A DNA stretch of 46,985 nt from Anaerolineae bacterium (GTDB lineage: Bacteria; Chloroflexota; Anaerolineae; Aggregatilineales; Aggregatilineaceae): the NCBI GenBank assembly GCA_016934195.1, contig JAFGTJ010000458.1:1-46985 (forward strand), in the 5' to 3' direction. Positions within the stretch are counted from its first letter, which is position 1, and each line of letters opens with the position of its first letter. The notes below the pieces were generated by a model. That model had not been told where the DNA came from, made no database searches, and saw only the letters and a program-made list of their open reading frames with translations. This document shows positions 12,133 to 43,224 of this stretch, piece after piece. A program made the position numbers and the translations under genes.

Positions 12133-12139
12133 AGAGTTG

Positions 12140-14506: not shown

Positions 14507-14887
14507 ATGGCTCCATGCGTATTGTATATCGAGGACAATATCGATAACCTGGTATTGGTCCGGCGAGTGCTCAAGGCCGAAGGAATCGAACTTCTTGAGG
14601 CGACTTCTGCACGGGAAGGGATTCGCCTGGCAGAAGAAAAGCTGCCCGACCTGATCCTGATGGACATTAACATGCCAGAAATGGACGGTCTGGTCGCGAC
14701 CGCGCACCTGCGCAGTAATCCCAAGCTGGCGAAAACGCCCATTGTGGCGCTCACGGCCAATATTATGCGAGACGTGCTGAACGCGGCGTTGGACGCGGGC
14801 TGTGATGGCTGCATTGCCAAGCCAATCCGAATCGATGATTTTCCTGAGCAAGTCTTGTCTTATCTCAAAAATGGGCGGACTACATGA
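14507..14887 (+). CDS. Single-domain response regulator (CheY-like receiver)
   Basis: The 126-residue protein is one receiver domain with no output domain. The acidic pocket is in VLYIEDN, the phospho-acceptor is Asp53 in LILMDINMPEMDG, and the conserved Thr and Lys are in VALTAN and IAKPI. It could act as a phosphorelay intermediate or as a partner for the hybrid kinase encoded later in the same operon. The ATG at 14507 has AAGGAA upstream; a TTG at 14489 is the alternative. Its stop overlaps the next start (ATGA). Its sequence is closely similar to the receiver at the N terminus of the histidine kinase at 31174, which suggests a shared origin. Confidence 0.93.
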   Translation: MAPCVLYIEDNIDNLVLVRRVLKAEGIELLEATSAREGIRLAEEKLPDLILMDINMPEMDGLVATAHLRSNPKLAKTPIVALTANIMRDVLNAALDAGCDGCIAKPIRIDDFPEQVLSYLKNGRTT

Positions 14888-16038: not shown

Positions 16039-16043
16039 GAATT

Positions 16044-17180: not shown

Positions 17181-17189
17181 GATAGCTTT

Positions 17190-18890: not shown

Positions 18891-20560
18891 ATACCCTGAG
18901 AAAATTGAGTGATCGGGTGGCTTTACACGAAGTCTACCCGGATGTTGTTGAGCGCCAGCAAGCCTGGCGGGTGTTGATCATCAATCTGGTGTGGATAGTG
19001 ATCAGTATCGCCGTCGCACCGGTGTTGCTTTGGTGGGCGACGGATGGCAGCTTTGATGCGGGAACCGTCTTTTTCCCATTTTCTCTGGCTGTAGCCTTTT
19101 TTAACCACCGGTTGATCCGGCAGGGACGTTTGAGCCGGGCGCGGCTGCTGTTTGTGCTCAATACCCTGGTGTTGTGTGTTTTGTTGATCTTCCCCAACTA
19201 CCGGATCGATACGGTATTTATCCTGGTTCTCACGCTGCCGCTGACGGCTTCCGGCGTGCTGCTGCCGCGATCCGGTCTGCTCGGGATGGGCGCGATCTTG
19301 ATCGTGATTGTAGCGGTTGGTGGGTTGGTTCAGCTTGACACGGATATGCAGCCCACGCCGCTCGGTTCACCGCTGGAAAGCATTCGGACGACGATTATTA
19401 TTGTTGCGGCAATTGTGGTGCTCGATGCCGCCATGTTGTGGACATTTGTTAACAGTATGGATAGTACACAGCGTCAACGCCAGTATTGGGTGGGGTTGAT
19501 TGATACCACCCACCAGATCAGCCAGACGTTGGTCGAACTGCCGGGCGATCCGGAGGTGTTGAACCGGACCGTCGAGCAACTGCGTGACGCGCTGGGACTG
19601 TACCACGCCCAGGTCTTTCTGGCTGATCCGGCCAGTGGGCTGCCGGTTTTGCGGGCCAGCACCGGCTTTATCGGTCGCCGGTTGCTTGAAGAGGAAAGTT
19701 TGCAGAAGCTCGACGAAGACAGCCCGGTTAATGATACGATGCGGCAGAAAGACCCGATTTTGCTGCGCGAAAACTCACCCGAAAGCCAGCGCAGCGGGTT
19801 TTTACCCGCTACTCGGAGCCAACTGCTGCTGCCGCTGCGGGTTGGCAACCTGTTACCATTGGGCGTGTTGGATTTGCACAGCACCATGCCTGCTACATTT
19901 TCGGCCAATGTAACGGATGTCCTGGTAACGGTCAGCAACCATTTGGCGGCAGCATTATACGGCGCACAGCAAACGCACCAACTGCGTGCCAGTTACCAGG
20001 AACGCGACCAGTTAGTTGACCGGATCAGGGATGACCAGCAGGAATTGGCGCGCATGAACCGGCAGTTGGTTGGCGCAACCTGGGGAACGTACCTCGAAGC
20101 GCGGCGCGATGCCCTCCCTGATCTGGAATGGCGGGATGGGGCGACTCTGCCGCCGCTTGTCGAATCAGAATTGGTGGATCAGACTCTTCGTGACGGTCAG
20201 CCGCGCCTGGAGCACCGCGATGCTGTTGATGTCTTGTGTGTGCCGATCCAACTGCGCGGCCAAACCCTGGGCGTGGTCGAATTCCGGCGCGAAAATACCG
20301 AACGATGGTCGCCCGCTGCTCTGGAATTGGCGCAGGCAGTAGCCCAGCGTCTGGCGCTTTCGTTAGAAAATGCGCGCTTGTTTGAACAGGCCCAAACGAC
20401 CGCGCAGCGCGAGCAGTTGGTGAGCCAGATTACATCCCGCCTGCAAACCATGAACGATCTCGAAGCGTTGTTAAATCTGGCCGCTGCTCAATTTCACGAA
20501 GCCCTGGGAGCTACTCAGACGCGCGTGCGCCTGGGGTTCCTGGAGGAAGGTCAAAAGTAG
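18887..20560 (+). CDS. Six-TM membrane GAF sensor without output domain (paralogue)
   Basis: The architecture matches the preceding gene. About six membrane segments at residues 25-190 (VLIINLVWIVISIAVAPVLLW; TIIIVAAIVVLDAAMLW) are followed by a full GAF (about 205-365), the linker MNRQLVGATWGTYL, a short GAF (about 410-500) and a truncated third GAF ending in TRVRLGFLEEG. The two membrane proteins are tandem paralogues whose membrane parts have diverged more than their GAF parts. The start ATG overlaps the previous stop by 4 nt. No catalytic output is visible, so the signal must pass through protein contacts. The ligand is unknown. Confidence 0.88.
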   Translation: MNTLRKLSDRVALHEVYPDVVERQQAWRVLIINLVWIVISIAVAPVLLWWATDGSFDAGTVFFPFSLAVAFFNHRLIRQGRLSRARLLFVLNTLVLCVLLIFPNYRIDTVFILVLTLPLTASGVLLPRSGLLGMGAILIVIVAVGGLVQLDTDMQPTPLGSPLESIRTTIIIVAAIVVLDAAMLWTFVNSMDSTQRQRQYWVGLIDTTHQISQTLVELPGDPEVLNRTVEQLRDALGLYHAQVFLADPASGLPVLRASTGFIGRRLLEEESLQKLDEDSPVNDTMRQKDPILLRENSPESQRSGFLPATRSQLLLPLRVGNLLPLGVLDLHSTMPATFSANVTDVLVTVSNHLAAALYGAQQTHQLRASYQERDQLVDRIRDDQQELARMNRQLVGATWGTYLEARRDALPDLEWRDGATLPPLVESELVDQTLRDGQPRLEHRDAVDVLCVPIQLRGQTLGVVEFRRENTERWSPAALELAQAVAQRLALSLENARLFEQAQTTAQREQLVSQITSRLQTMNDLEALLNLAAAQFHEALGATQTRVRLGFLEEGQK

Positions 20561-20569
20561 GAGCGATCC

Positions 20570-22807
20570 ATGAGGCGATATCGCTTGTCTCCACTGCATT
20601 GGCCGATCAACACCAAGTTGGTGGCTGTGTTCCTGTTGGCGAGTTTTTTGCCTGCGGTGATTGTCCTGGTTCCGTTTGAGGGCTACCGGCGCAATGTGGT
20701 CATCCAGGAGCAAAATGAAGTTCGGCTGGAAATTCTTGGCCCATTGGAGATTGTGCAGACCCAACAGGTATTTGACACTCTGATCACCCAGTTGGAGCGA
20801 TTGTACTCCGGCTCGACTTATTATGCTTTGTTAGAGGCATATTTAGTCACGGCTTCCGAGGCGGATCGGACTGCGGTTGAGGAACAAACCGCTCGTTTTT
20901 TTGATTTTGCGCCGTCGTTGTCCCGTGTCCGTTTTTACGATGCGCATTACCTTTCCTTGTTGGATGTGAACGCTGAAGGACGGACACCCGGTAATGCCAC
21001 GCCTGCCGATGCGTTGATCAAGCTTGGTGAATTGAGCGCGCGTGTTACTCTCAGCGAGATTTACGTTGGACCTGGCGATAGGCCGCTGCTGGACGCGATT
21101 TTTGCTTTTCGTCCAGGCGATACTGATCTGGCCGGTGTTCCGGCTGGATACATGGTGTTCACCCAGGATTTGTCGTTGGCTGCACAAGACGACTGGCTGC
21201 CCGATTTATACGGGGCGCTGCAAACATTCCCGCGTTCTAAGGAAGCAACACACGTTTTCGTGCTGGATTCGTTGGGAGGGCTGGTCGCGGCGTCTGAGGA
21301 TGCTGCGTTGTTTACAAGCGCCGTATCTTCTGACGGATTCCGCGAAGCTCAGCAGGGTTATACCGGGGTGTCCCGTTACTACAGCCCGCTGTTGGATACG
21401 CAGGTGCTCGGTTATCATGAGATGGTCTCATTTCCTGATGGCCCGGTGTTTACCTATCTGGTTGAAACTCCTGTGAGCGAGCTGACCAGCCGCGTCTGGC
21501 AGGATATCGTGCTCGTGTTTCTGCTGGTCAGCGCCGGGGGCGTCATATTGGGGAGCATCGCGGTCTGGATCGGGAACAACCTGATTTCCCGTCCGGTCAC
21601 GCGGTTGACAGAAAATGCCCAGCAGATCGCGGCAGGACGCTTTAATGTGAAGCTGCCAACCGTGACGCGGCGGGATGAGATCGGTCGGCTGAATAATACG
21701 CTCAGTGACCTGGCCGAACAGTTGATCTCGGCAATTACCGATCTGGAAGAACGTGTGGCTGTGCGCACACGCAACCTGGAAACCACGCTTGAGATCGGAC
21801 GTGTGCTGACCGGTATTCACGATATGGATACCTTGCTGGAACAGATTGTGACCGTAATCCGCGATCAGTTCGACACAATTTACCATGCGCAGGTGTTTTT
21901 GATCGATCCTGCCACGCAGCGGGCTAACTTGCGAGCCTCGACCGGGGCAGTGGGGCGGCGGCTGCTTCAGCGCGGACATTATCTTGAGGTTGGCAGCCAG
22001 AGTGTGATCGGGAGTGTGACCGCCTCCGGTCATGCCGTGGTCGCGTTGGATACATCGGCCAATCCGCTCCACCGGCACAACGAATTCCTGCCGGACACAC
22101 GCGCCGAGATGGCGCTGCCTTTGCGAACCGGGAAACGGGTGATTGGCGCGTTGGATTTGCAGAGCACTCTGCCGGATGCGTTTGGGGAACCGGATGTTGA
22201 TTTGTTTCAAGGGATGGCCGATCAGGTTACGATTGCGATTGAGAATGCTACGCTCTTTGCCGAATCGAATGCCCGGTTACAGGAAATTGAGCGCCTGAAC
22301 CAGTCGTTGACCCGCATGGGTTGGCGCGAGATCGGTCGAGGCAGCAAGCGTCCTTCGTTGTCAGCATCCGTCGGAGCTTCAGTCGATAATGGCACATGGT
22401 CGGATTTGCAGCAGAAAACCATCCAAACCGGCCAGGTTGCCGTCCAGAACGAAGGCCAACAAACGCGATTTGCGGTGCCGGTTGTGCTGCGTGGTGAAGT
22501 GCTGGGGGCGGTTGAATGGCAGGTTCCGAGCGCGCGCTATTCTAAGGAAATTGTTCAATTGGCTCATGAACTTACTACCCGGCTGGCGCTGACTGCTGAG
22601 AATATTCGTCTCTCAGATCGCAGCCGCCAGGCCGCCCAGCGCGAATATCTGGTGAGCCAGATTTCGACCCAACTGGTGGGCATGACCGATGTTGATGAGA
22701 TATTAAAGGTTGCCGTCCGCGAGTTGGGGTTGGCGCTGCGCGCGCCGCAAACGGCTATCCAACTTGTTGCGCCGCCTGACACAACCGATGATGCAGTGAG
22801 CGAGTAA
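20570..22807 (+). CDS. Periplasmic-sensor/HAMP/GAF protein without output domain
   Basis: A membrane segment at about 18-38 and another at about 308-335 flank an extracytoplasmic region of about 270 residues, large enough for a double Cache (dCache) sensor. A HAMP domain follows (about 336-390; ISRPVTRLTENAQQIAAGRF). Then come a full GAF (about 400-570; PDTRAEMALPLRTGKRVIGALDLQS), linker ERLNQSLTRMGWREIG, a short GAF and a truncated C-terminal GAF (REYLVSQISTQLVGM). HAMP usually passes a signal to a kinase or methyl-accepting domain, yet none is encoded here. TAGGAGCGATCC precedes the ATG, so this gene has one of the best ribosome-binding sites of the operon. Confidence 0.9.
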   Translation: MRRYRLSPLHWPINTKLVAVFLLASFLPAVIVLVPFEGYRRNVVIQEQNEVRLEILGPLEIVQTQQVFDTLITQLERLYSGSTYYALLEAYLVTASEADRTAVEEQTARFFDFAPSLSRVRFYDAHYLSLLDVNAEGRTPGNATPADALIKLGELSARVTLSEIYVGPGDRPLLDAIFAFRPGDTDLAGVPAGYMVFTQDLSLAAQDDWLPDLYGALQTFPRSKEATHVFVLDSLGGLVAASEDAALFTSAVSSDGFREAQQGYTGVSRYYSPLLDTQVLGYHEMVSFPDGPVFTYLVETPVSELTSRVWQDIVLVFLLVSAGGVILGSIAVWIGNNLISRPVTRLTENAQQIAAGRFNVKLPTVTRRDEIGRLNNTLSDLAEQLISAITDLEERVAVRTRNLETTLEIGRVLTGIHDMDTLLEQIVTVIRDQFDTIYHAQVFLIDPATQRANLRASTGAVGRRLLQRGHYLEVGSQSVIGSVTASGHAVVALDTSANPLHRHNEFLPDTRAEMALPLRTGKRVIGALDLQSTLPDAFGEPDVDLFQGMADQVTIAIENATLFAESNARLQEIERLNQSLTRMGWREIGRGSKRPSLSASVGASVDNGTWSDLQQKTIQTGQVAVQNEGQQTRFAVPVVLRGEVLGAVEWQVPSARYSKEIVQLAHELTTRLALTAENIRLSDRSRQAAQREYLVSQISTQLVGMTDVDEILKVAVRELGLALRAPQTAIQLVAPPDTTDDAVSE

Positions 22808-22811
22808 AACT

Positions 22812-25800
22812 ATGTTACGCAGACGAGGCATTCAAGCTCAAATCGTTCAGATCATTGTCATTGCGTTGATCTTTTTGGCTGCGATTCTACAGATTGTAAA
22901 CAGCCTGCGACAGCGTGAGTCTTTGATCAAGGCCAACCGTGCTCAAGCGCTGGGGATGGCCGTTTCGTTGCATGAATCGATCAAAGCCTTCGATCTGATG
23001 TTTACAACACTGCCGGATGTGTTGGATGTCGATCAAAATCTGTTAGTGCTGCGGCTGCTGCCCCAGATGACAAGCATGTTTAACCAGGGGTTCGCTGATT
23101 TTGTGGAAGGGGATCTCTCGGTTGCGTTTGAGTCCTTGGTGTTATCCAATGGCGCGGTGATTAATCACTCGAAGCCAGAGGCGCGGAACAAAACCGCCGC
23201 CGAATTAGGGATTGCTGATTTGCCATTGGACAGGACCGTGCGGCGTGACATACCCGGTTATGCGCCTGTATACCTGACTCGTGTTGAGATTGATGCGACT
23301 GATACGTTTGTGGGTACGGAACTGAATTTCATTGTCGGCATCTATGCCGAGCCAATCGATTCCGAGCTTCGGCAGGGCCTCATCTTTTCGGGGGTAGCAG
23401 CGTTGGCTGGTGTGCTGTTGGTTAGCTCGGTGGCTGCTTACATGGTCCGGCGGGGCGTCATTCGGCCTATTCATAACGTGCAGACCGCTGCGTTAAATTT
23501 TAGCCAGGGCAAATTGACACACCGGATTGATCCGAAGGGCAGTGCTGAATTTTACAATCTGGCTGAAACTCTAAACCGCATGGCCGGGAATTTGCAGCAG
23601 TCACGCGAGGTTGTTGAAGCGCTGCTGAATAATATGTCATCGCGGGTCCAGTCGCATGATCGTGATCTCCAGATCGCCGCCGATATTGGGCGTATTGCGG
23701 CCAGCCTGCGGGATGTCGATACGCTGCTGCAAGAGACGGTGGACCAGATATGTGCCCGATTTGAGACAATTTATCACGCCCAGATTTTCCTGTTGGATGA
23801 ATTGGGTGAATATGCGGTGTTGGTCAAAAGCACGGGCGAGGCGGGGCGGCGTCTCTTGAGTTTCGGGCATAAAATTTCCGTCGGGTCGGATTCGGTGATT
23901 GGACGTGTCACGCTGCGCGGCCAGGTGGTGATGGTATCGGACACGTTGGCCGGGGAAGTGCCCTGGCAGCCTAATCCTGTTCTTCCCCATACCCGCGCAG
24001 AAATGGCGCTGCCGTTGGCAATTGAGCAGCGCGTGATCGGCGCGTTGGACGTGCAAAGTATTAAGCCGGACGTCTTTACCAGTGAGATGGTTCAGGTGTT
24101 CGGGGTGTTGGCCGACCAGCTTGCCATTGCGATCCGAAATGCCCAACTGCTTTCAGAATCGGAGCGCCGTGTCCGTGAGATTGACAGTCTCAACCGCCAG
24201 CTCACCCGTAGCGTGTGGCAGACTTTTGTGACTGCCGAGCGTGGCGGCCAGCCGTCCGGTTATCTGTATGACCAGATGAACACGGTCTCGTTGGACGCGG
24301 AAAACACCGCCGTGCTTATGCCACAGCGGACCGAAGTGCCGATTCAGGTGCGTGGTGAGACCATTGGGATGTTGGCGGCGGCTGCGCCGGGTGATGAATC
24401 GTTGACGGATGATGACCAGATGCTGGTTCGCGCCCTGGCCGACCGTGTTGCGTTGGCGATTGAGAACGCGCGTTTGTTTGAACGGACACAGCGCGCGCTT
24501 TCTGAGACGGAACGCCTGTATGAAGCGGCCCGGACGGTGAGTGGTACGTCCGCCCTGGCGGACATTTACCCGCTGGTGGCCGAACAGATCGGGACGGCTG
24601 CGCCCTCGGTAGACGCCATTGATATCATGTTATCTGGTCCCGCCCCGACCCTGATCCAGTATCTTGAGGATGTGTACCGCTGGCAGCGCAATACGGAGTC
24701 GGGATCGCTTGATCCTGAGCGGTTGCAGGTGCCCCCGCTGGAATCATTTGTTGAGGGTGGTTTGCCAGAGAATGAACCGTTGCTCTACCGGGATGCTGCC
24801 GCTGACATGGCGGCCAGTCATCCCCTTTATGCGCGATTGAACAACCGGGCGGCGCGCAGCGTGCTGATTGCTCCCCTTCATGCTGGCGGGCAGTGGTTCG
24901 GGGTGGTGGTGTGCAGCGGTCATCATACCGGCGGGTTTGAAGCGGCCTATGTATCGTTCGTGAGTGCGTTGTGCGACCAGCTTGCCATCGCCATTGAAAA
25001 CCGCCGCCTGTTTGAAGATGCCCAGGCCGAAGCGCGCCGCGCGCGCGCATTGGCTGAGGCCGGTCAGTTGGCTAGCCGGATTGCGGGCGATTATGTATCG
25101 GGTCTGCAACACTTATTTGAAGTGGTGGCCGGGCCGGGCGGATATGACCGTTGGTGGTTTGGGTTGCTGTCAGATGACGGCAGCGCGTTGGGAATGGTCA
25201 CGGAGTCGGGCATTCCGCTTTCAACCGTTGACGTTCAAAATGATCAACACGCGCTGGCCGAAGTTGCGCGGATTGGCGAGATTGTTCTGATCAACGATCC
25301 GGTTGATCACCCGGTTGTGGGACCGCAAGACTTGGCGACTGTCCAGACGTGGGGTAAGCACATCGCCATGCCAATCCATATTGGATCGTCGTTGACCGGT
25401 GCTTTGTTGATCGGACGCGGCCAGGAAGCGCCGAATCTGGACGAACGGGATATCCAATTGGCGGCAACGCTGGCAAGCCAGGTAGCCGTTGCAACCCAGA
25501 ATCAGCGCTTGTTTACCGAAGCGGAAAGTCAGGGCCGCCGGTTGCAAACGATTGTGGACACCATGCCTACCGGTATCCTGGTGATGGATACTCAGGGGAA
25601 TGTGCTGCTTGCTAATCAGAATTTGCGCGATCTTTTGGGACCGGATATGCGGCCTGATACCGGGGCACGTCCCGAACCCTATCCGATAGTGCGGACCGGC
25701 ACGCAGGACCCATATCCGCGTGACGAATGGCCGCTGAGCCAGGTGGTTAGCCTGGGTGTTCCGGTTGTGGTCGATGATATGACGGTGCTGCATCCGGCGG

Positions 25801-28800
25801 GCTACGAGATCAGTGTGCTGGCGCAGGCGGCTCCTATCACCAATGCGGCGGGCGAAGTAACGGCGGTTGTCGGCGCATTTCAGGATATTACCGAGCTGCA
25901 AGAGTTGGAGCGCGCCCTACAAGACAGCTTGCGCGAAACAACTTTACTTTACGAGGCCAGCCAGTCAATCTCGCGTGCCAACACGATGGACGAGTTGTTA
26001 GACGTGACACTGCGGCAGATTATGACGATGGCCCTGTCGCCGGACCGGGTGTATGTATTCTTGCAAGAGGCAGAGGACGACGAGCGATACACCCTTCGTC
26101 TGGTTGCCAGCGAACCCAGCGAACCGCTGGAGAATTGTGCTTTGTCCGGGTTTAGTCCAATGCTGGGACCCGAACCAATCATTGTCACCGCATCGACCGC
26201 TCCAGATGAGTTCAGGTCTTGTTTCGAGCAAATGGAAGTGGGTGTCCTGGGTAGTTTTCCACTGCGAGTACACCAGTATATCAACGGGTGGATCATGGTC
26301 GGCTTCACCGATCCCAGCGGTTTGATGACGGAACAGCGCCGGTTTATGACCACGTTGGCCGATCAAGCGGCGGTGACGGTCGAAAACCAACGGTTGTTGG
26401 GCCGGACAGAAGCAGCGTTGGAAAATACCGCCCGGTTGTACCGGGTGAGTCGCGCTATTGCTGACGCGCACGGCGCGCTGGATATCCTGCGCGCGTTTGT
26501 GAACTACGGCGCGCCGCGCCCGGTGGGGTATGCGGCGTTGTACCTCTTGATGGGGGATCATGAAGATACTACGAATACAGTGGTCGAATTGGCGGCAGCC
26601 TGGGGAGATCGAACCGCGACCGACCCGGTTGGCACGCGCTACCAGGCCGAGCGGTTTGCTTATTGGGGGCAGTTGACCAGCCGGGGAATTACCCACTTTG
26701 ATGATGTGGCCGCAGCATTCAACCTGGACCCGGAAATCCAATACTGGTTCACGATCCTTGAGATCGAAGCGGCGGCTTTGATCCCGCTCCGGTTGGCGGA
26801 TCGCCCGGTGGGTGTCATCTTGATTGGTCTGGATGAACCCTGGGTACACAGCAACAGCCAGCTTCGCATTTACCAATCAATGGCAGATCAGTCAGCTATT
26901 TCGCTTGAAAACACGCGCCTGTACCAGCAGGCCGAGCGCCGCGCCAGGCAGCTCAGCACCTCGGTCGAGATTGGCCGGGCCGTTACATCGATTTTGTCCC
27001 TGGACGAACTGCTGCCCAGGGTTGTGAATCAGATTCGAGAGGCGTTTGAATACGATCATGCCCAGGTCTTTCTGCTCAGCGAAGATGGGGTCCGGGCCAA
27101 TCTGGTAGCATCCACCGGCTCGGCGGGTCAGCAGATGTTAGCGGTGCGGCACAGCTTGCCGGTCGGATCGCAGTCGGTGATTGGGCAGGTGACGGAAACC
27201 GGCAAACCTCAAATCGCGTTGGATACGGCGGATGCGTTTGTGATCCACCGGGTGAATCCGTATTTGCCGGATACGCGCTCGGAGATGGCGCTGCCGTTGA
27301 TTGCGCGCGGCCAGATTCTGGGCGCGTTGGACGTGCAGAGCAACCGTCCGGGCACATTCACTCCCAACGATGTCCAGATATTAACGCCGCTGGCCGATAT
27401 GGTTGCCATTGCGATTAACAACGCCCGCCTGTACGAAGTCTCGCAGGAACGGGCCGAGGAGATGGCGTTCCTGTTTAATGTGACGACTGCCGCCACAACT
27501 TCGTCCGATTTGTCCCAATCCCTGGAACAGGCCGTTGAAACGCTGCGCGTGATGATGGGCGTCACCAGCGCCAGTATTTTCCTGCCGGACGAGAGCGGTG
27601 AGCACATGATCAAAGGGGCGGATGTGGGGGCAACCGGCGAAGAGATAGGACCTTCGTTGGTGTCTTTTGACCGAGGGCTGATCGGTTGGGTGGCCCGCCA
27701 CCGCGAACCGGCGATCATTGGTGATGTCGCGCAGGACCCGCGCCGTTTGCCGACCCTTGAAACCACCCAGTCGGTGATCGTGGTGCCGCTGCAAACCGTC
27801 GGGCGGTTGGTTGGGGTGTTGGGTGTCGAGAGCGATAAACTCAACGCTTTTGACGACAACGACCTGCGTCTGCTGCAAGCGTTGAGCGGTTCGTTGGCCG
27901 CGATCATCCAGAACCAGCAGTTGCTGCGCGAAGTGCAGTTGGCGAACGAACGCTTGCTGGAAGTGGACCGTTTGAAGACGAACTTCTTGGCGGCGATGAG
28001 CCATGAGCTGCGCACGCCGCTTAACTCGATCATCGGTTTTTCGCGGGTGATTCTGAAAGGCATTGATGGCCCGCTTACCGACACGCAGGAGCAGGACATA
28101 ACAACCATTTACGACAGCGGTAAGCACCTGCTTGGCCTGGTGAACGATATCCTGGATCAGGCCAAAATCGAGGCCGGTAAGATGGAACTATCGTTTGGCT
28201 ACTTCAAGCTTCAGGATGTCGTTACGGGCGTGATGTCGAGCGCCATCGGCTTGACTCGTGACAAACCGGTCCGGCTGCATACCGACATTGCGGAGAATCT
28301 GCCGGATGCTTACGGCGATGAGTTCCGCACGCGCCAGGTGCTGCTAAATCTGGTATCCAATGCGGCCAAGTTCACCCCGGAGGGCAGTATCAGCGTGTCG
28401 GCGTTTCCCATTGTGGAAGAGGGCCAGCAGTATCTCCAGGTGTCGGTGGTGGATACCGGGATCGGCATTGCGAAGGAAGATATGTACCTGCTGTTTGAAG
28501 CCTTCCAGCAGGTAGATAATTCCCTCACCCGCTCAGTCGAAGGAACCGGGATGGGCTTGCCGCTCGCCAAATCCTTGACGGAACTTCAGCACGGGCGTAT
28601 CTGGGTAGACAGCGCGCCGGGGATCGGGTCCACATTTAGCATCACGGTTCCGACCGGACCTCAACCCGAAGAGGGCGCTGAGGGTCAACGACCGGGTGAT
28701 GCGGCGACGCCGGTGGTCAGGGAAGTTGACACGCCGCTGATTGCGCCGTCGCCGAGGAGTGCTCTGCCGGACCCGGCAAAAGTGGCACTGGTGATTGAGA

Positions 28801-29540
28801 ACAATCTGGAGATTATCAGCCTGTATCGCCATTATCTCGCCAGCGCCGGTTACGAGGTCGTAGGCACGGTTCATGCCGGAAACGCGGTTGACATGATCAC
28901 GGCCTACAAACCCAACGTGGTGTTGTTGGACGTTGACGTGTCGGAAGGGTCTGGATGGGACGTGCTGGCCCGGTTGAGCAGCACCCCCGAAACATCGTCT
29001 ACGCCCGTGATCGTATCCAGCATGAACACCGATCTGGAACGGGTGTGGCAGTTGGGCGCGTCCGGTTATCTCCTGAAGCCATTTTCCGAGAGCCAGTTGG
29101 TGGATACGGTGAAAGGCGTTGAGGCCAGCACGGATTGCCAGCATATTCTGCTGGTGGACGACAAGCCGGAAACTGTGCGTGTGTTCCGTGAGGCGCTCGA
29201 AGCCTCCGGGCAGTACTGCGTGACGGAAGCGACGACCGGTCAGCAGGCCATGGATATTATCCAGCAGCCCCAGACCATTGACCTTGTGATCCTGGACCTG
29301 CGAATGCCAGAAGTGGATGGGTTCGAGGTGCTGCAAATGCTGCGCACCAATGCGCGCACGGTAGGCGTGCCGGTGCTGGTACTGACGGCGGAGGACGTGA
29401 ACGCCGAGGAACGTACCGCGCTCCAGACGACCAGTATCTATCGCAAGGATGATCTGGACGAAGAACATTTTCTGCAACAAGTGGAAATGCGACTCGGAAG
29501 CACACAGGAGAATACACGTTTTGAGCATGGTAACAACTAA
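22812..29540 (+). CDS. Giant hybrid histidine kinase: sensor-HAMP-multiGAF-PAS-HisKA-HATPase-REC-REC
   Basis: The 2242-residue protein starts with a two-TM extracytoplasmic sensor (about 10-215) and HAMP (about 213-270). Then follow a full GAF (281-450), a short GAF after the linker LNRQLTRSVW (459-556), two more GAFs (563-735, 746-900), a PAS domain (905-1025; MPTGILVMDTQGNVLLANQN) and four further GAFs (about 1040-1195, 1200-1370, 1375-1540, 1545-1700). The kinase core has His1731 in SHELRTPLNS, the N box LLNLVSNAAKF, VVDTGIGI and GTGMGLPLAKS. Two receivers carry Asp2040 (LLDVDVS) and Asp2162 (VILDLRMPEVDGFE). The first has Glu-Asn in place of the usual acidic pair (VIENN). It is the only clear output among the first seven operon genes. 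Start spacing is 4 nt. Confidence 0.93.
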   Translation: MLRRRGIQAQIVQIIVIALIFLAAILQIVNSLRQRESLIKANRAQALGMAVSLHESIKAFDLMFTTLPDVLDVDQNLLVLRLLPQMTSMFNQGFADFVEGDLSVAFESLVLSNGAVINHSKPEARNKTAAELGIADLPLDRTVRRDIPGYAPVYLTRVEIDATDTFVGTELNFIVGIYAEPIDSELRQGLIFSGVAALAGVLLVSSVAAYMVRRGVIRPIHNVQTAALNFSQGKLTHRIDPKGSAEFYNLAETLNRMAGNLQQSREVVEALLNNMSSRVQSHDRDLQIAADIGRIAASLRDVDTLLQETVDQICARFETIYHAQIFLLDELGEYAVLVKSTGEAGRRLLSFGHKISVGSDSVIGRVTLRGQVVMVSDTLAGEVPWQPNPVLPHTRAEMALPLAIEQRVIGALDVQSIKPDVFTSEMVQVFGVLADQLAIAIRNAQLLSESERRVREIDSLNRQLTRSVWQTFVTAERGGQPSGYLYDQMNTVSLDAENTAVLMPQRTEVPIQVRGETIGMLAAAAPGDESLTDDDQMLVRALADRVALAIENARLFERTQRALSETERLYEAARTVSGTSALADIYPLVAEQIGTAAPSVDAIDIMLSGPAPTLIQYLEDVYRWQRNTESGSLDPERLQVPPLESFVEGGLPENEPLLYRDAAADMAASHPLYARLNNRAARSVLIAPLHAGGQWFGVVVCSGHHTGGFEAAYVSFVSALCDQLAIAIENRRLFEDAQAEARRARALAEAGQLASRIAGDYVSGLQHLFEVVAGPGGYDRWWFGLLSDDGSALGMVTESGIPLSTVDVQNDQHALAEVARIGEIVLINDPVDHPVVGPQDLATVQTWGKHIAMPIHIGSSLTGALLIGRGQEAPNLDERDIQLAATLASQVAVATQNQRLFTEAESQGRRLQTIVDTMPTGILVMDTQGNVLLANQNLRDLLGPDMRPDTGARPEPYPIVRTGTQDPYPRDEWPLSQVVSLGVPVVVDDMTVLHPAGYEISVLAQAAPITNAAGEVTAVVGAFQDITELQELERALQDSLRETTLLYEASQSISRANTMDELLDVTLRQIMTMALSPDRVYVFLQEAEDDERYTLRLVASEPSEPLENCALSGFSPMLGPEPIIVTASTAPDEFRSCFEQMEVGVLGSFPLRVHQYINGWIMVGFTDPSGLMTEQRRFMTTLADQAAVTVENQRLLGRTEAALENTARLYRVSRAIADAHGALDILRAFVNYGAPRPVGYAALYLLMGDHEDTTNTVVELAAAWGDRTATDPVGTRYQAERFAYWGQLTSRGITHFDDVAAAFNLDPEIQYWFTILEIEAAALIPLRLADRPVGVILIGLDEPWVHSNSQLRIYQSMADQSAISLENTRLYQQAERRARQLSTSVEIGRAVTSILSLDELLPRVVNQIREAFEYDHAQVFLLSEDGVRANLVASTGSAGQQMLAVRHSLPVGSQSVIGQVTETGKPQIALDTADAFVIHRVNPYLPDTRSEMALPLIARGQILGALDVQSNRPGTFTPNDVQILTPLADMVAIAINNARLYEVSQERAEEMAFLFNVTTAATTSSDLSQSLEQAVETLRVMMGVTSASIFLPDESGEHMIKGADVGATGEEIGPSLVSFDRGLIGWVARHREPAIIGDVAQDPRRLPTLETTQSVIVVPLQTVGRLVGVLGVESDKLNAFDDNDLRLLQALSGSLAAIIQNQQLLREVQLANERLLEVDRLKTNFLAAMSHELRTPLNSIIGFSRVILKGIDGPLTDTQEQDITTIYDSGKHLLGLVNDILDQAKIEAGKMELSFGYFKLQDVVTGVMSSAIGLTRDKPVRLHTDIAENLPDAYGDEFRTRQVLLNLVSNAAKFTPEGSISVSAFPIVEEGQQYLQVSVVDTGIGIAKEDMYLLFEAFQQVDNSLTRSVEGTGMGLPLAKSLTELQHGRIWVDSAPGIGSTFSITVPTGPQPEEGAEGQRPGDAATPVVREVDTPLIAPSPRSALPDPAKVALVIENNLEIISLYRHYLASAGYEVVGTVHAGNAVDMITAYKPNVVLLDVDVSEGSGWDVLARLSSTPETSSTPVIVSSMNTDLERVWQLGASGYLLKPFSESQLVDTVKGVEASTDCQHILLVDDKPETVRVFREALEASGQYCVTEATTGQQAMDIIQQPQTIDLVILDLRMPEVDGFEVLQMLRTNARTVGVPVLVLTAEDVNAEERTALQTTSIYRKDDLDEEHFLQQVEMRLGSTQENTRFEHGNN

Positions 29541-36480: not shown

Positions 36481-37887
36481 TTATTCGCCAAATACCAGTT
36501 CGATGTTGTCAATCCAGATTGAGCCAACCTGCGCGCGTTCCCAGTCTCCCAGGTCAAATACGAACCAGGCGATCTGAGCCGGATCGAACTCGTCTGGCCC
36601 GCCGTCAAACCACGCGGCTTTTGCCAGATCGTCCCAACTGATGAACAGTTCCGACCAGTCACCAACCGGCGCAGTTACTTCGATCTCAAAGGGAGCAGCC
36701 TGTCCGGGGTCGGGGTTGGCGGGATCGGCTACGGCCAGCGCGAATCGCATCACCAGGTCGGGTTGATCGGCCCACCAATAGAATCGAATCCCCTCGGCTT
36801 CCGACCAATTTTGGATCGCGGCAAAATTGAATCCGCAGCCTCCCCCGCTGTCAGCGGCCATGTCGAGCGTGATCCGCAGTGCTTGCTCGCTGTTGTATCC
36901 GCCCTGTTCCGACGTGCAGGTGAACGTGTTCACGGTGCCATAGGAGTGATCCCACCATTCGAGCTGTGTATCGCTGGTTTCAAAATCCGTGATGGTGTTG
37001 TTGTCCGGTGACAGGGGAACAGCCGCGACAGCGGGTTCACCCTGATCGGCTGGCTGGTCGTCGGGTTCGGACATGTCAGCGGCGTCGGATGGTTGGCCGG
37101 GCTGTTGTTCGTTCAGCGGAAGAGGTTCCCCTGGCGTGAAGTCCATAATAGCCTGGGACACGAAGTCCACAAAGACCGGGCCAACGGTCTGATTAGCGAG
37201 TGTATTCGGGTGGCTGTCCCATTCGTCCCCGCGATATTCGGCGCGCAAAAAGCCTTCTTCATCGGCCAACTGACTGAAGAAGTCAAACACATAGACATTC
37301 GGATGCCCGTCCAGGTATTCCGGCGATGTCAGGTATTCGGACCACTGCCGGGCGCGCGCAGCGCTGTCAGCATCGGTTTCATTGGGCACCAGCGGCGGCG
37401 TGGTGAAAGGAATAAAGAGCTTATCGGGATGCCGGCCCATCGCGTCACGGATGCTCAGAAAATAATGCTGGTATTCCTGGAACATCTCGTCACTGGCGAT
37501 ATGAGACGAGGGGAAACAGCTTTTGAAAATGATCACGTCAAATTCGAGCATGTGGCTGAGCGTGTTGCCGGGTGGATCGGTCACGGGCTGGTTAAATGTC
37601 TCGTACCAGCCATTGGGGTCGGTGTTGTCGCCGGGTACGTCCCAATTGGTGCCGAGATAGGCTCCGGCAGCGTTTATCAGACCCTCCTCGTTATAGCCGT
37701 GATCCCAGAATTCATAACTCTGCGCGGTGAAGGCTTCGCGCACCCCACCTTCCCAGATCAGGCCCGCGCCGGTGGAATGGTGCATAAAAATGATGCGGAT
37801 TGGTTCATCCTGGGCGGCGGTGGGGGAGATGAGAACCAACAGTAATAGGACGGCGAGTGCCGTGTACCAAAATCGGTGCCCCTTCAT
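36481..37887 (-). CDS. Secreted two-domain protein, C-terminal CBM11/CIA30-like domain
   Basis: A signal peptide is clear (ALAVLLLLVLISPTAAQ). Residues about 30-250 form a domain I do not recognise with certainty: it begins IRIIFMHHSTGAGLIWEGG and contains FKSCFPSSH and DEWDSHPNTLANQ, a layout resembling SGNH/GDSL-type hydrolases, with candidate His and Ser residues but no canonical GDS. A linker rich in Gln, Pro and Asp leads to a C-terminal beta domain (about 300-468; ITDFETSDTQLEWWDH and IWIDNIELVFG), like CBM11/CIA30 carbohydrate-binding modules. The likely role is binding or processing a surface glycan, but this is inferred. GGAGGTTGACTG precedes the ATG. It is the last gene of the minus-strand cluster with the two cyclic-nucleotide-binding proteins. 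Confidence 0.75.
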   Translation of the reverse strand: MKGHRFWYTALAVLLLLVLISPTAAQDEPIRIIFMHHSTGAGLIWEGGVREAFTAQSYEFWDHGYNEEGLINAAGAYLGTNWDVPGDNTDPNGWYETFNQPVTDPPGNTLSHMLEFDVIIFKSCFPSSHIASDEMFQEYQHYFLSIRDAMGRHPDKLFIPFTTPPLVPNETDADSAARARQWSEYLTSPEYLDGHPNVYVFDFFSQLADEEGFLRAEYRGDEWDSHPNTLANQTVGPVFVDFVSQAIMDFTPGEPLPLNEQQPGQPSDAADMSEPDDQPADQGEPAVAAVPLSPDNNTITDFETSDTQLEWWDHSYGTVNTFTCTSEQGGYNSEQALRITLDMAADSGGGCGFNFAAIQNWSEAEGIRFYWWADQPDLVMRFALAVADPANPDPGQAAPFEIEVTAPVGDWSELFISWDDLAKAAWFDGGPDEFDPAQIAWFVFDLGDWERAQVGSIWIDNIELVFGE

Positions 37888-37957: not shown

Positions 37958-38590
37958 TTATGGGTTTTTATCAGTGGACGCCGGGCGCTGGTCGAGTTTG
38001 AGGGTCGCTTCGCGCGCCTGGACGCTGTGGACCATTTTCAAAAACGCATCCAGCAATCCTTGAATTTCGCCATCCAGGGCTGATTCGGGGACTTGTTGCA
38101 GCGCTTGCTCGTAATTTCCACGTTCGAGTTGCTGGGTGGCGTCCAGAACGTTTTCAAGATAGGTCGTGGTATAACGCACGCGCTCTACCAACTCGCGCAT
38201 CATTGCCAGCCCGACCAACGGGCGCTCGTGTAGAAAGGCCAGAAAATCATCACGGTGCAGGATCAACACGTCGAGCGGTTCCGCTGCCGCCGCTGACGCC
38301 GAACGTGGTTTGCCATCGAGCATGGAAAATTCGCCCACCGTGTCTTCCAGGTGCCGGAGGGTTAACTCGCGGTCTTCCGCATCGCGGGTATAAATGCGTA
38401 CCCGGCCCGATAGAACGATATACATTGAATCGCCCGGCGCGCCTTTCTCAAATAACACCGCCCCCGCCGGGTACGATTGGCGGCGCATCAACTGGATCAA
38501 GGCCGCACGATCTTCCAGCGATACGCCTTTGAACAGGACTGAGTGTTCGAGTTGTACGGCCAGCGTGCCATCGTTTATGTTGTCATTCAT
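37958..38590 (-). CDS. Cyclic-nucleotide-binding-domain protein
   Basis: Residues about 10-130 form a cNMP-binding domain: VLFKGVSLEDRAALI, SYPAGAVLFEKGAPGDSMYIVLSGRVRIY, and a phosphate-binding cassette VGEFSMLDGKPRSASA that keeps the Gly-Glu and Arg of the family. A helical tail of about 75 residues follows (RYTTTYLENVLDATQQLERGNYEQAL), which resembles the tail of the neighbouring fusion protein. No helix-turn-helix, channel or kinase domain is seen, so this is not a CRP-type regulator. It lies 27 nt downstream of the PrsW fusion gene on the same strand and is probably co-transcribed. Confidence 0.88.
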   Translation of the reverse strand: MNDNINDGTLAVQLEHSVLFKGVSLEDRAALIQLMRRQSYPAGAVLFEKGAPGDSMYIVLSGRVRIYTRDAEDRELTLRHLEDTVGEFSMLDGKPRSASAAAAEPLDVLILHRDDFLAFLHERPLVGLAMMRELVERVRYTTTYLENVLDATQQLERGNYEQALQQVPESALDGEIQGLLDAFLKMVHSVQAREATLKLDQRPASTDKNP

Positions 38591-38617: not shown

Positions 38618-40354
38618 TTAAGCGGTTCCGGTGCGGATAGTTTGTTCCCGTTCGTGTAATTTGCTCGCCGCCGCTGAGAAAATGTCCTCAACCAGCATGA
38701 CTGTTTGCTCGGATATTTCGTCTGGTTCCAGCATGATCTCGCCTGTCATGTGGGTGTCGGTGGTTTGAACTGCCGCGTAATTGCCTGCGCTGATCTGCGT
38801 CATCCAATTAACGCCGATCTCGACCGATGTGGTCGTGAATCGCACTTTTTCAGCCAGGTATTGGAGCATTGCCAGCACGACTTTCGGGCGGCTCTGGATG
38901 AACCGGATGAAGACTTCACGCTGAAGCACCAGCACTTTAAGCGGTCCGTTCGCGCGCGCGCTGGCCGAACGGGGTCGCCCATCCAGCAGCGAAAATTCCC
39001 CGACCACGCTTCCCGGCTCGAAAGTGCGCAGCGGTTTTTCCTGGCCTGCTTGATCGCGCACAAAAATGTCGATTTGCCCGTCTTCAATCAGGTACATGGC
39101 ATCGCCTTTTGCGCCTTCGTGAAACAGCAGTGTGCCGTTGTCAAAGCTTTGAACCGAGATGGCGCGGCTCAGGTTTTCCAGATTTGCTAGCGATACGTTT
39201 TTGAAAATCTGGATATGGCTCAGGCGTTGGGCAAATGCGGCCAACTGCTCCGGCGTGAAGGTTTCGGCCAGTTCCGAGACGCGCATGAACATATCGAAGG
39301 TATGCACCAGCGTCGGATCGGATCGCGCCAGTTCCTCATTGAGTGCTGTTTGCATGGTGGCATCATCACCGGGGAAAACGGTTTGCAGAAACAGGCGGAC
39401 CGGCGCGTTCAGCGTGTTTCGGGTGCGCTCGATCTCGGCACGATACTCGGTAATTTCCGCCAGCCACGCAGCGCGAAGACGGTCGCTGACCGGGCTGCTG
39501 AGATTGTTTTGCAAAATACCGATGTTAGCCTGGACCACGAGCAAGTGGCGAATCAGGGTGATATGCTCCGTCCCGAAGAATTCGCCCAGTTCTCGAAAAA
39601 TCGTTTCCATCGAGGCCACGCCCAGTTGTTGGACGGCTTTACGTTCCCCGGTGGAGACATCCAGGTCCAGTCCCAGAGTGTGGGAAAACCGGCGTTTCTC
39701 CTCTAACAAGCCCTGGTTGATCTGCCATGCGATCAGCACGCCGCCGCCGATGCCGGTACCGACCGCAACCAACAGTAACATGATGCCGTTTAATTCGCTG
39801 ACGACGTTGTTATAGATGACGTGCAGTGCGATAGCGAGTCCGATACCCAGGACCGGCCACACGTTCCGGCGGGCGGCGGTGGTGCGGCGCAGGCGGCCTA
39901 ATGACAGCCCGACTAACCCGCTGGCGGCGGCGTGCATCAGCGAAGTGGATAATGTGCGGCTGATCGCAGTGCCGAGCACGGCGCTGCCCGATCCGGGCAG
40001 GTACACGAACAGGTTTTCCGACAGCGCGAATCCCATCCCAACCGCGATACCGTAGATTGCGCCGTCCACGATGTAGCGAAAACTCGGCTGGCGGATCAGA
40101 TACAGCAGGATCAGCGACTTTAGAATTTCTTCGATAATGGGAGCCGTGATTTTGGTCAGGGTTTCGTAGCTTAGCCCGGTATCAATCACAGCGTTGTTCA
40201 CCCATACCGCGATCTGGTATGCCGCAACCGCGCCCCATGCCGCGCATAACAGGATAGTATTGGCTTTCCCGGTGCCAAACACGTCCAGCGTGATGAACAG
40301 GTAGATTACCAGCGCAGGAATGATGATGGCGATAAGGTAGGCGGCAATCGTCAT
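38618..40354 (-). CDS. PrsW-like intramembrane protease fused to a cyclic-nucleotide-binding domain
   Basis: The N-terminal 210 or so residues hold seven or eight hydrophobic segments with PrsW-family motifs: Glu75-Glu76 in PIIEEILKSL, Glu113 in GFALSENL and His141 in LMHAAASGL. By family knowledge PrsW-type proteins are membrane-embedded proteases that cut transmembrane regulators such as anti-sigma factors. The middle (about 230-375) is a helical cytoplasmic region. Residues about 385-510 form a cNMP-binding domain (LLFHEGAKGDAMYLIEDGQIDIF; VVGEFSLLDGRPRSASARA), then a helical tail. The fusion would let a nucleotide control membrane proteolysis; this is inference. The ATG at 40354 has GAGGCA upstream. 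Confidence 0.88.
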   Translation of the reverse strand: MTIAAYLIAIIIPALVIYLFITLDVFGTGKANTILLCAAWGAVAAYQIAVWVNNAVIDTGLSYETLTKITAPIIEEILKSLILLYLIRQPSFRYIVDGAIYGIAVGMGFALSENLFVYLPGSGSAVLGTAISRTLSTSLMHAAASGLVGLSLGRLRRTTAARRNVWPVLGIGLAIALHVIYNNVVSELNGIMLLLVAVGTGIGGGVLIAWQINQGLLEEKRRFSHTLGLDLDVSTGERKAVQQLGVASMETIFRELGEFFGTEHITLIRHLLVVQANIGILQNNLSSPVSDRLRAAWLAEITEYRAEIERTRNTLNAPVRLFLQTVFPGDDATMQTALNEELARSDPTLVHTFDMFMRVSELAETFTPEQLAAFAQRLSHIQIFKNVSLANLENLSRAISVQSFDNGTLLFHEGAKGDAMYLIEDGQIDIFVRDQAGQEKPLRTFEPGSVVGEFSLLDGRPRSASARANGPLKVLVLQREVFIRFIQSRPKVVLAMLQYLAEKVRFTTTSVEIGVNWMTQISAGNYAAVQTTDTHMTGEIMLEPDEISEQTVMLVEDIFSAAASKLHEREQTIRTGTA

Positions 40355-40491: not shown

Positions 40492-40522
40492 GTGGTGTAG
40501 ATTGGATCAACAGGGTCTGGCT

Positions 40523-41482
40523 ATGGACTATGTAGACTACTATAAGGTACTGGGCGTTGATCGCGGCGCATCACGCGAGGAGATTAAGAAGGCGTACCGC
40601 CGCTTGGCCCGCCAGTATCACCCCGACGTGAATCCCGGCAACAAAGAAGCCGAGGAAAAATTCAAGGCGATCAACGAAGCTAATGAGGTGCTGTCCGACA
40701 AGGACAAGCGCCAGAAATATGATCAACTCGGCCAGAGTTATCACCAGTGGCAGCAGATGGGCGGACAGCCCGCTGGCTTTGACTGGTCGAATTGGATGTC
40801 TGGGCAGTCTGGGCAGCCTGGGCAGCCGGGCGGCTTCCGCGTAGAATATGCAGACAGTAGTATGGGCGGCGGCGATTTCTTCTCGGATTTCTTCCGCTCG
40901 ATGTTTGGTGGTGGTATGGGACAACAAACACGCTCCGATCCGCGTGGGTCGGGCAGGCGGGCGGCGCGCGGCCAGGATTTGGAGGCAGTGGCCCAGATTA
41001 CGCTGGAGGATGCGTATCACGGTACGATACGGACCGTTCAAATCGGACAGCGCCAGCTTACTGTGAACATTCCACGCGGCGCGCGCGAGGGTACACGGGT
41101 CCGGCTGCGCGGTCAGGGCGAACGCGTGTATGGCGGCGGGCAGCCCGGCGATCTGTTCGTGATCGTGAGCCTGTTGGAGCACCCGGTTTTTACGCGGGAC
41201 GATGATGATCTCCACCTGGATTTGAAGGTGCCGGTTTATACGGCGGTGTTGGGAGGGTCGGTCCGTGTGCCAACCCTGGACGGTGATGTGACGCTGCGCA
41301 TCCAACCCGGCACGCAGTCCGGCCAGAGTATCCGGCTGCGCGGCAAGGGAATGCCACATTTGCGGGGACACGATACACAGGGCGATTTGTACGCGCATGT
41401 GTTGGTTCAGGTGCCGACCGACCTGTCAGAAAACGAACGGCGGCTTTTTGATCAGTTGCGCCAGATGCGCGGCGCTGAGTAG
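40523..41482 (+). CDS. DnaJ/CbpA-like J-domain co-chaperone
   Basis: The 319-residue protein has an N-terminal J domain with the HPD motif (His33-Asp35 in [10 protein letters not shown]), a Gly/Phe-rich linker, and two C-terminal substrate-binding beta domains ([21 protein letters not shown] and [21 protein letters not shown]). The cysteine-rich zinc-finger region of DnaJ is absent, so it is of the CbpA (type II) kind. It should stimulate the ATPase of a DnaK partner not encoded in this window. I chose ATG 40523. A TTG at 40502 starts a longer frame. A 9-bp repeat in the linker encodes Ser/Pro-Gly-Gln units. It is the first gene of an operon with HtrA and HspR. Confidence 0.92.
40801..40827 (+). 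repeat. Three tandem 9-bp repeats within the J-domain protein linker
   Basis: Units TGGGCAGTC, TGGGCAGCC and TGGGCAGCC follow one another in frame and encode Gly-Gln-Ser/Pro repeats. Slippage in this Gly-rich linker could change its length between strains. Confidence 0.75.
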
Positions 41483-41549
41483 GATTGTTTATTGGCACTG
41501 TCGTGAGTGGACGAACCGGATAGTGAAACCAGATTGAGAGGACGACTAC

Positions 41550-42884
41550 ATGGGTTGGGACTTTGACGATTTTGAACCGGTAGAGGATGATGAGCCAGCA
41601 AACAGCCGAGGGCGGTTTCTCAATTTTCTGATCGGCGCGGCAGTGGGTGTGATTACGTTGGTGCTTATCACGTCGCTCGTATTAACGACTGTGGCGCATC
41701 TGTTGATGGATGACACACCGGTACGCCGCTCTGTGACGCGCGACCAGCCATCTCAGGCTGACTTGGTGAACGCGAACTATCGCCCCAGTAATTGGGTAGA
41801 GCCAAACCTCTTTCAGATCATCACGCCGACGCCGGTCGCGCCGGATGTGGTTGTGCAGGCCGACGCGGAACATGCGCTGCTCATTAACATTTATGAGCGG
41901 GTTAATCCCTCCGTTGTCAATATTGAGGTTGTGAGCCGGTTTCACAGCGACACCGACGTGATTGACAGCAGCGGGTCGGGGTTTGTGCTGGATATGGATG
42001 GTCATATTGTCACCAACTCGCACGTCATTCGTGAGGCGAATGAAATCCTGGTGACGTTTTATGACGGCTATGTCATCGAGGCGCAGATCATCGGTGTGGA
42101 TGATTACAGCGACCTGGCCGTTATCCGGGTTGATCCGGCTCGCAGCCCGTTAGTGCCGGTGATGTTGGGGGATAGCAACACGTTGCAGGTCGGCCAGCGG
42201 GTGATCGCCATTGGCAACCCGTTTGGGCTGGACGGCAGCATGACGGTCGGCATTGTGAGCGCGTTGGGGCGGTCGCTGCCGTCGGCGCAGTTGCTCGATC
42301 CGAACAGCTATGCTGGCTACAGCAACCCCTCGATTATCCAGCTTGACGCGGCGGTGAATCCCGGCAACTCCGGCGGGCCGCTGCTGGATTCTTACGGCCA
42401 GGTGATCGGCATCAACACCGCGATACGGACGGAAAATGGCGTATTCCAGGGGATCGCGTTCGCGGTGCCGGTGAACACCATGAAGCGCGTGGTTCCCCAG
42501 TTGATCCAGACCGGGTTTGCCGAGTATTCCTGGTTGGGGATTCAAAGCCCGCCGAATGAGCTTGGTACCAGCGTCGCGGCCCTGGCGGACGAACTGGGCT
42601 TCCCGGTCCGCAGCGGAGTCATGGTCAGTCAGGTTGTAGCGGATTCCCCGGCGTACCGGGCCGGGTTGCAGGGCGGAACTGAGGAAGTGCAGGTGCGCGG
42701 AGTTTTTGTGCCGACCAACGGTGATATCGTCGTTGCCATCAATGGGATGATGGTGCATGATATTGACGATCTGACCGCGTTCCTGGTGGAAAATACCTCA
42801 CCCGGTGATACCGTTGTGCTGACCATTGTGCGCAATGGGCAGACATTGGACGTGGATGTAACGCTAGGGGTGCGGCCCCGGTAA
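41550..42884 (+). CDS. HtrA/DegP-like serine protease with PDZ domain
   Basis: A short acidic cytoplasmic N terminus is followed by one membrane segment (about 25-48), so the protease domain faces outward. The trypsin-like triad is His158 (IVTNSHVI), Asp188 (YSDLAVI) and Ser274 (NPGNSGGPL). One PDZ domain follows (about 325-440), with a carboxylate loop near YSWLGIQSP and a VVLTIVRNGQTLDVDVTLG end. By family knowledge it degrades or refolds misfolded envelope proteins. GAGAGGAC precedes the ATG. Its place between a J-domain co-chaperone and an HspR-like repressor fits stress control. The 66-nt gap upstream holds no clear promoter. Confidence 0.95.
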   Translation: MGWDFDDFEPVEDDEPANSRGRFLNFLIGAAVGVITLVLITSLVLTTVAHLLMDDTPVRRSVTRDQPSQADLVNANYRPSNWVEPNLFQIITPTPVAPDVVVQADAEHALLINIYERVNPSVVNIEVVSRFHSDTDVIDSSGSGFVLDMDGHIVTNSHVIREANEILVTFYDGYVIEAQIIGVDDYSDLAVIRVDPARSPLVPVMLGDSNTLQVGQRVIAIGNPFGLDGSMTVGIVSALGRSLPSAQLLDPNSYAGYSNPSIIQLDAAVNPGNSGGPLLDSYGQVIGINTAIRTENGVFQGIAFAVPVNTMKRVVPQLIQTGFAEYSWLGIQSPPNELGTSVAALADELGFPVRSGVMVSQVVADSPAYRAGLQGGTEEVQVRGVFVPTNGDIVVAINGMMVHDIDDLTAFLVENTSPGDTVVLTIVRNGQTLDVDVTLGVRPR

Positions 42885-42900
42885 GCGCGGAGGTGACAGC

Positions 42901-43224
42901 ATGAACGACTCCATTCCCTGTGACGACGAACCGTGTTATACCATCGGTGTAGTGGCGCGAATGGTCGATCTGCATCCTCAAACCCTGCGCAATTACGAGC
43001 AGGGGGGGTTGGTTATTCCCCAACGCAGCGCCGGGAACATTCGCCTGTATTCTCAGCGTGAGGTCGAGCGTTTGAAGAAGATCAACCGGCTGACTCAGGA
43101 GTTGGGCGTGAATCTGGCCGGGGTGGAGGTTATTCTGCGTATGACCGACCAGATCGAAATGCTGCAAATCAAGTTGAGCCTGTTACAGCAGCAGCTTAAT
43201 ACCGAGCGAGAACGGCGCGCTTGA
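42901..43224 (+). CDS. hspR: MerR-family heat-shock regulator (HspR-like)
   Basis: The 107-residue protein has an N-terminal MerR winged helix: YTIGVVARMVDLHPQTLRNYEQGGLV, IRLYSQREVERLKKINRLTQELGVNLAGVEVIL, followed by a coiled coil (MLQIKLSLLQQQL) for dimerisation. The Leu-x-Pro-Gln-Thr-Leu-Arg-Asn-Tyr-Glu core and the short effector-free C terminus are as in HspR, which represses dnaK/dnaJ operons in other bacteria. It would repress this operon, including itself, with relief on heat stress. A strong GGAGGTGA lies before the ATG, 16 nt after htrA. Another short MerR regulator is possible but less likely given the neighbours. Confidence 0.88.
   Translation: MNDSIPCDDEPCYTIGVVARMVDLHPQTLRNYEQGGLVIPQRSAGNIRLYSQREVERLKKINRLTQELGVNLAGVEVILRMTDQIEMLQIKLSLLQQQLNTERERRA

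Follow-up and report, generated by a model that had tools for sequence, protein, structure and literature searches.

A PrsW-family intramembrane protease fused to a cyclic nucleotide-binding domain in Anaerolineae and its gene linkage to an ECF sigma factor and a putative anti-sigma factor

Introduction

The anti-sigma factor RsiW has one transmembrane (TM) helix and an outside domain, and what triggers site-1 cleavage of the PrsW type is, to our knowledge, poorly understood. PrsW (YpdC) of Bacillus subtilis is the site-1 protease for RsiW (PMC3498285). Four motifs of the B. subtilis enzyme, E75E76xxK79, F110xxxE114, H138, and H175xxxD/N179, are given in a more recent report (PMC12943098).

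PrsW domains fused to PilZ, FHA, zinc-ribbon, or cyclic nucleotide-binding domains were mentioned briefly by Zhang et al. in 2012, who predicted that they are signalling peptidases that cleave in response to a sensed signal (PMC3482391). These fusions are of the same kind as the protein studied here; they occupy one sentence and supplementary entries of that paper, and the accessible passage says nothing of a substrate, of gene order, of a partner subunit, or of split versions. Similarly, the PrsW protein LIC_20173 of Leptospira carries a C-terminal cytosolic second-messenger domain, and regulated intramembrane proteolysis of an anti-sigma factor was proposed for it; however, that domain is a PilZ domain associated with c-di-GMP rather than a domain of the CRP type, and no substrate gene is reported in the accessible part of the source (PMC12943098). 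The cyclic nucleotide-binding (cNMP) fold and its ligand contacts are shared by Escherichia coli CRP, the regulatory subunits of PKA, and mycobacterial Pat; unlike in these proteins, the effector joined to the cNMP domain here is an intramembrane protease.

The DNA analysed (hereafter the window) is a stretch of 46,985 nucleotides from an Anaerolineae bacterium (contig JAFGTJ010000458.1, positions 1-46,985). A preliminary description had proposed that one of its genes joins the PrsW motifs through a helical region to a cNMP domain, which would place regulated intramembrane proteolysis under the direct control of a nucleotide. We show herein that this architecture is borne out by the open reading frame, the Pfam matches, and the motifs, and we add to it a probable second cNMP subunit, split versions of the protein, and the 2012 mention of the fusion type (PMC3482391). 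While the fusion type itself was already known, its gene-order setting with a sigma/anti-sigma pair looks new. In the literature searched, the sigma/anti-sigma linkage, the partner subunit, the split versions, and the GTA loop described below were not found; a search for PrsW with the hyphenated term "cyclic nucleotide-binding" returned no paper, its coverage being incomplete and the 2012 paper spelling the term unhyphenated.

Results

Architecture of the fusion

The fusion gene and its parts are as follows.

38618..40354, minus strand: PrsW-middle-cNMP fusion gene, 578 aa (open reading frame; Pfam PrsW and cNMP_binding; full-length orthologues)
39728..40354, minus strand: PrsW intramembrane protease domain, residues 1-209, about seven TM helices (Pfam, hydropathy, model helices)
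39191..39727, minus strand: conserved helical middle (coupling) region, residues 210-388 (mean column identity 73%)
38819..39190, minus strand: cNMP-binding domain with C-helix, residues 389-512 (Pfam, CRP/PKA-R sequence matches, Foldseek)

The Pfam PrsW-protease model (PF13367) matches residues 33-193 with an E value of 3.9e-27 (95.5 bits versus a cut-off of 23.5), and cNMP_binding (PF00027) matches residues 402-488 with an E value of 2.1e-21, far above its cut-off. Against the NCBIfam equivalog of the B. subtilis type (NF033739) the protein scores 51.6 bits, below the cut-off of 225 bits, and it is thus a member of the PrsW family and not a YpdC orthologue. Its genome, an assembly of 4.07 Mb in 564 contigs with a completeness of 77.6%, contains no other PrsW match. 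Among named records, the closest are metagenome-assembled genomes (MAGs) of Anaerolineae/Aggregatilineales in the phylum Chloroflexota, and MAGs make up most of the genomes compared. Full-length orthologues across the order are 44-66% identical to the fusion, and those within the window's family 60-66%.

The middle region matches no known family and is also present in split proteins that have no fused cNMP domain. The AlphaFold2 model of the whole chain was weak (pLDDT 64.7, pTM 0.41), with the middle region very weak, and only the cNMP domain was placed reliably by Foldseek; modelled alone, the middle region reached a pLDDT of 54.8, too poor for a fold search.

Catalytic motifs and topology

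The PrsW domain contains four motifs, each invariant among 48 homologues.

40118..40132, minus strand: catalytic motif 1, E75-E76-x-x-K79
40016..40030, minus strand: motif 2, F109xxxE113
39932..39934, minus strand: motif 3, H141
39809..39823, minus strand: motif 4, H178xxxN182

E75, E76, K79, F109, E113, H141, H178, and N182 are unchanged in 48/48 aligned sequences of the class Anaerolineae, split versions and distant paralogues included, and the glutamates on whose conservation the preliminary description had staked its reading vary in none of them. The four motifs lie inside predicted helices of the AlphaFold2 model, and both the motifs and their nearly equal residue numbers liken the domain to B. 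subtilis PrsW, to which a helical middle region, a cNMP domain, and a second cNMP subunit are added here. From hydropathy and the positive-inside rule, we read the topology as N-out/C-in, which would make the C-terminal part cytosolic. A polymorphic-toxin or secretion role of the fusion (cf. PMC3482391) was considered and rejected, the toxin domain being absent.

The nucleotide site and a probable partner subunit

Two elements of the cNMP domain correspond to ligand contacts of E. coli CRP.

38963..39001, minus strand: phosphate-binding cassette, G452-E453 ... R462-S463-A464 (R and S kept in 28/30 fusions)
38831..38836, minus strand: T507-T508, equivalents of the CRP cAMP N6 contacts T127-S128 (alignment)

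The intact cassette announced by the preliminary description is present. Residues 401-511 align with CRP 20-131 (offset 380 at the end of the alignment), so that R462, S463, T507, and T508 correspond to CRP R82, S83, T127, and S128, and Foldseek matched the domain to the isolated cNMP domains 2pqq and 5d1i (TMt 0.80-0.90). T508 is retained in 29/29 fusions and T507 in 26/29; position 453 is E in 23 of 30 and D in 5. The predicted cAMP contacts also appear conserved in a second protein, encoded next to the fusion.

37958..38590, minus strand: stand-alone cNMP protein, 210 aa, 27 bp downstream of the fusion (Pfam; gene pair in most relatives)

This protein is 44-45% identical to the C-terminal part of the fusion, the gene pair is retained in most relatives, and the cassette RSASA and the C-helix RYT are kept in the partner proteins. 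By these sequence features it is probably a partner subunit of the fusion, and cAMP is a first guess for the ligand.

It is unlikely that, in a system otherwise as proposed below, the cNMP domains have lost nucleotide sensing and serve for dimerisation, for docking, or for binding of a different ligand. Many domains of the CRP/FNR fold do not bind cyclic nucleotides, D replaces E at position 453 in the five fusions mentioned, and R462 and S463 are missing from two aligned sequences, which by our assignment are apparently distant paralogues. Nonetheless, equivalents of CRP E72, R82, S83, T127, and S128 are retained in nearly all fusions, the partners keep their cassette and C-helix motif, and the genome encodes 10 class III cyclase domains, all of which argues for nucleotide sensing. 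The paralogues (L045:1459-3105 and L046:1432-2997) represent a second, distant PrsW-cNMP protein of about 520 aa and 29% identity, found in several genomes.

Split versions

In a sample of 400 genomes drawn from the window's phylum, Chloroflexota, the protease was found at E <= 1e-38 in 17, all 17 belonging to the window's class. In genomes from outside the order, split forms are the rule with few exceptions: a PrsW-middle protein of ~370-400 aa is in most cases followed by a separate cNMP protein of ~245 aa. A fusion in one genome (L138) is nested among the split forms; provided that the tree is correct, the fusion thus has two or more origins. It appears, then, to be a joining of two neighbouring genes that occurred about two times. 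Further rearrangements are seen in four genomes of family f3, where a PrsW-middle protein without a cNMP domain precedes a tandem cNMP-cNMP protein (two cNMP domains in L043), and in L029, whose partner protein has three cNMP domains. That domains swap between the neighbouring genes argues that the products of fusion and partner genes act in one complex.

Linkage to an ECF sigma factor

The window contains no sigma/anti-sigma pair, just as the preliminary description had said; the pair sits elsewhere in the same genome, and in many relatives beside the protease. In L008, L009, and L010, an ECF sigma gene (Sigma70_r2, E 2e-15 to 3e-17) and a gene for a small TM protein, hereafter anti-sigma-like, immediately precede the fusion gene. 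The start codon of the small protein overlaps or abuts the sigma stop; in L008 the reading frame of the small protein is possibly shifted near its end. Sigma and anti-sigma-like genes also directly precede the fusion in L029, L033, L035, L038, and G040, and with one intervening gene in G030. Eight genomes with split forms (L158-L165) share the order divergent MinD-like ATPase, sigma, anti-sigma, gap, PrsW-middle, cNMP, MinD-like ATPase, in which the gap is about 2-4 kb and holds a surface protein where it was read; L166 has the same gene set in a different order. The ATPases of this class-wide operon match AAA_31/CbiA.

MinD/ParA-like ATPases of this kind (IxSVHSFRGGTGKSN) often lie beside the sigma locus and are frequently present as two copies flanking the whole operon (L117:2922-3680, L118:2863-3621, L119:1094-1933, L123:3208-3966, L158:5732-6547 and 11427-12212). 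None was found in the window's own genome, which is 78% complete and whose sigma contig ends where the divergent gene of the relatives sits.

The orthologous pair of that genome is on contig 548 (G000:C548). The contig carries the anti-sigma-like gene (L116:7295-7729, E 3.2e-27) and, of the sigma gene, only the end, cut by the end of the contig; the sigma stop overlaps the anti-sigma start as ATGA. Genomes of the window's family, f1, that have the orthologous pair carry it on a different contig or at a distance from the protease, and this unlinking counts against the mechanism favoured below. The sigma locus has moved away from the protease in this family. It is accompanied there by a ~200-aa protein with an N-terminal TM helix, which in our reading resembles the gene after the linked operon in L008 and L009; this likeness ties the linked and unlinked arrangements together.

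Across 61 relatives, protease and sigma factor occur together in 20, the protease by itself in 9, the sigma factor by itself in 2, and neither in 30 (Fisher p 4e-7, kinship ignored). The nine protease genomes with no sigma homologue at the threshold used include G001 (99% complete) and four genomes of family f7, and no such sigma gene was found in the 15-18 kb around the protease in G001, G009, G052, and G048, or in 11 kb in G029 (the last three being f7 genomes). These exceptions are real and likewise count against the mechanism favoured below.

The surroundings of the fusion in the window are different. After the gene pair comes an optional member.

36481..37887, minus strand: secreted protein following the fusion and partner genes (same-family relatives L002, L004, L005, L014)

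This protein has no Pfam match. On the other side, the plus strand of the window (40502-43224) encodes a divergent DnaJ (CbpA-like), an HtrA-like protease, and a MerR-type regulator, a trio found near PrsW-cNMP elsewhere only in L014 and probably L013. Its position suits a reading to which we give little chance, namely that the protease of the window's lineage has lost its tie to the sigma system and works together with these genes in envelope quality control. This neighbourhood is, however, limited to close relatives, the orthologous sigma/anti-sigma pair is kept in the genome, and identity between the protease and its relatives in the family is still 60-66%. Elsewhere in the same family, DUF2207-like and zinc-ribbon membrane proteins are encoded directly upstream of the protease (L003:2627-5112, L013:3489-5966).

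The anti-sigma-like protein

The 21 anti-sigma-like sequences aligned are 22-39% identical to the copy in the window's genome. The gene directly follows an ECF sigma gene, and the product is TM anchored with a cytosolic N-terminal part; none of the 21 matches an anti-sigma Pfam model at E values up to 0.01, which counts against the anti-sigma reading and for which reason the protein is called anti-sigma-like. Its position, the overlap with the sigma gene, and its topology suggest that it is an anti-sigma factor. Two TM helices with a short loop between them lie towards its C-terminus. Unlike RsiW it has no extracytoplasmic domain, and it would therefore be an anti-sigma factor without an outside sensor. 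Just six columns of the alignment are nearly invariant, one of them the Thr of a GTA motif in the loop (variants GTV, ATA, and GAA).

The GTA motif conforms to the small-x-small rule of type I signal peptidases, and site-1 cleavage by signal peptidases is known for RsiV and RsiP (PMC8844934). Moreover, surface proteins encoded beside sigma genes have a comparable FGTAG after their only TM helix, which is N-terminal. A signal peptidase might thus cut the loop, with PrsW-cNMP acting at another step of the cascade or on different substrates, which we consider quite unlikely: PrsW is the protease of the same gene cluster throughout the class, and PrsW is known as an enzyme that cuts an anti-sigma factor at site 1 (PMC3498285).

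The surface proteins just mentioned are large, begin MQGRxLxRQT, and have a single TM helix, after which comes a conserved DLFGTA(G) motif; several are encoded near sigma genes (L118:6077-9001, L123:1-788, L008:9349-14073, L009:9202-14280, L135:1405-3020). This motif and the GTA loop may represent one and the same processing signal. A DNA pattern for DLFGTAG gave few matches in 61 genomes, some of them unrelated, and none in the window's own genome. A "DLFGTGK" after TM1 of the protease was rejected as an instance of the same signal, since the topology makes that loop cytosolic.

Discussion

The preliminary idea of nucleotide-controlled intramembrane proteolysis is supported by the conserved glutamates and by the sigma/anti-sigma pair, which lies beside orthologues of the protease and is unlinked in the genome of the window. 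As with PrsW/RsiW/SigW of B. subtilis, gene order ties the protease to an ECF sigma/anti-sigma pair, a known type of substrate. It is rather probable, in our estimate, that PrsW-cNMP is a site-1 protease which a cyclic nucleotide, probably cAMP, gates on the cytosolic side, and that it cuts the two-TM anti-sigma-like protein.

From the architecture, the conservation of catalytic and ligand-contact residues, the gene order, the pair in the genome itself, the cyclases, and three Peptidase_M50 matches (S2P homologues) in that genome, we infer the following chain. The PrsW domain would reside in the membrane. In the cytosol, the cNMP domain, which probably forms a heterodimer with the stand-alone subunit, would sense the nucleotide and act via the helical middle region to switch the protease, either activating or inhibiting it. 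The substrate would be the two-TM anti-sigma-like protein; its gene and an ECF sigma gene neighbour the protease in most of the class and are found on contig 548 here. By analogy with RsiW, PrsW-cNMP would make the site-1 cut, near the GTA motif in the loop between the TM helices, and a protease of the S2P type would then complete the cleavage and free the sigma factor. An anti-sigma factor lacking an outside sensor and a protease with cytosolic cNMP domains make it most likely that the signal is internal, and the conserved gene set of ECF sigma factor and membrane-bound inhibitor suggests that sigma release is set off by a second messenger inside the cell and not by a signal from outside. To the complete scheme, in which a cAMP-like nucleotide bound by both the fused domain and the partner subunit switches PrsW, the GTA loop is cut, the ECF sigma factor answers an internal signal with no outside sensor, and a MinD-like ATPase belonged to the ancestral operon, we would give an even chance.

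For PrsW-cNMP, the trigger can be guessed from the sequence and put to the test, and relatives carry the gene of a candidate substrate beside that of the protease. If the scheme is true, the signal comes from inside the cell, signalling of the cAMP type is linked to ECF sigma factors, and the locus offers a clean system in which to study the gating of an intramembrane protease by a soluble domain.

Elsewhere in the window, the plus strand (14884-29540) carries, as judged by eye, a run of large proteins resembling GAF-domain sensors, the last of which is a hybrid histidine kinase of 2242 aa that includes response-regulator domains.
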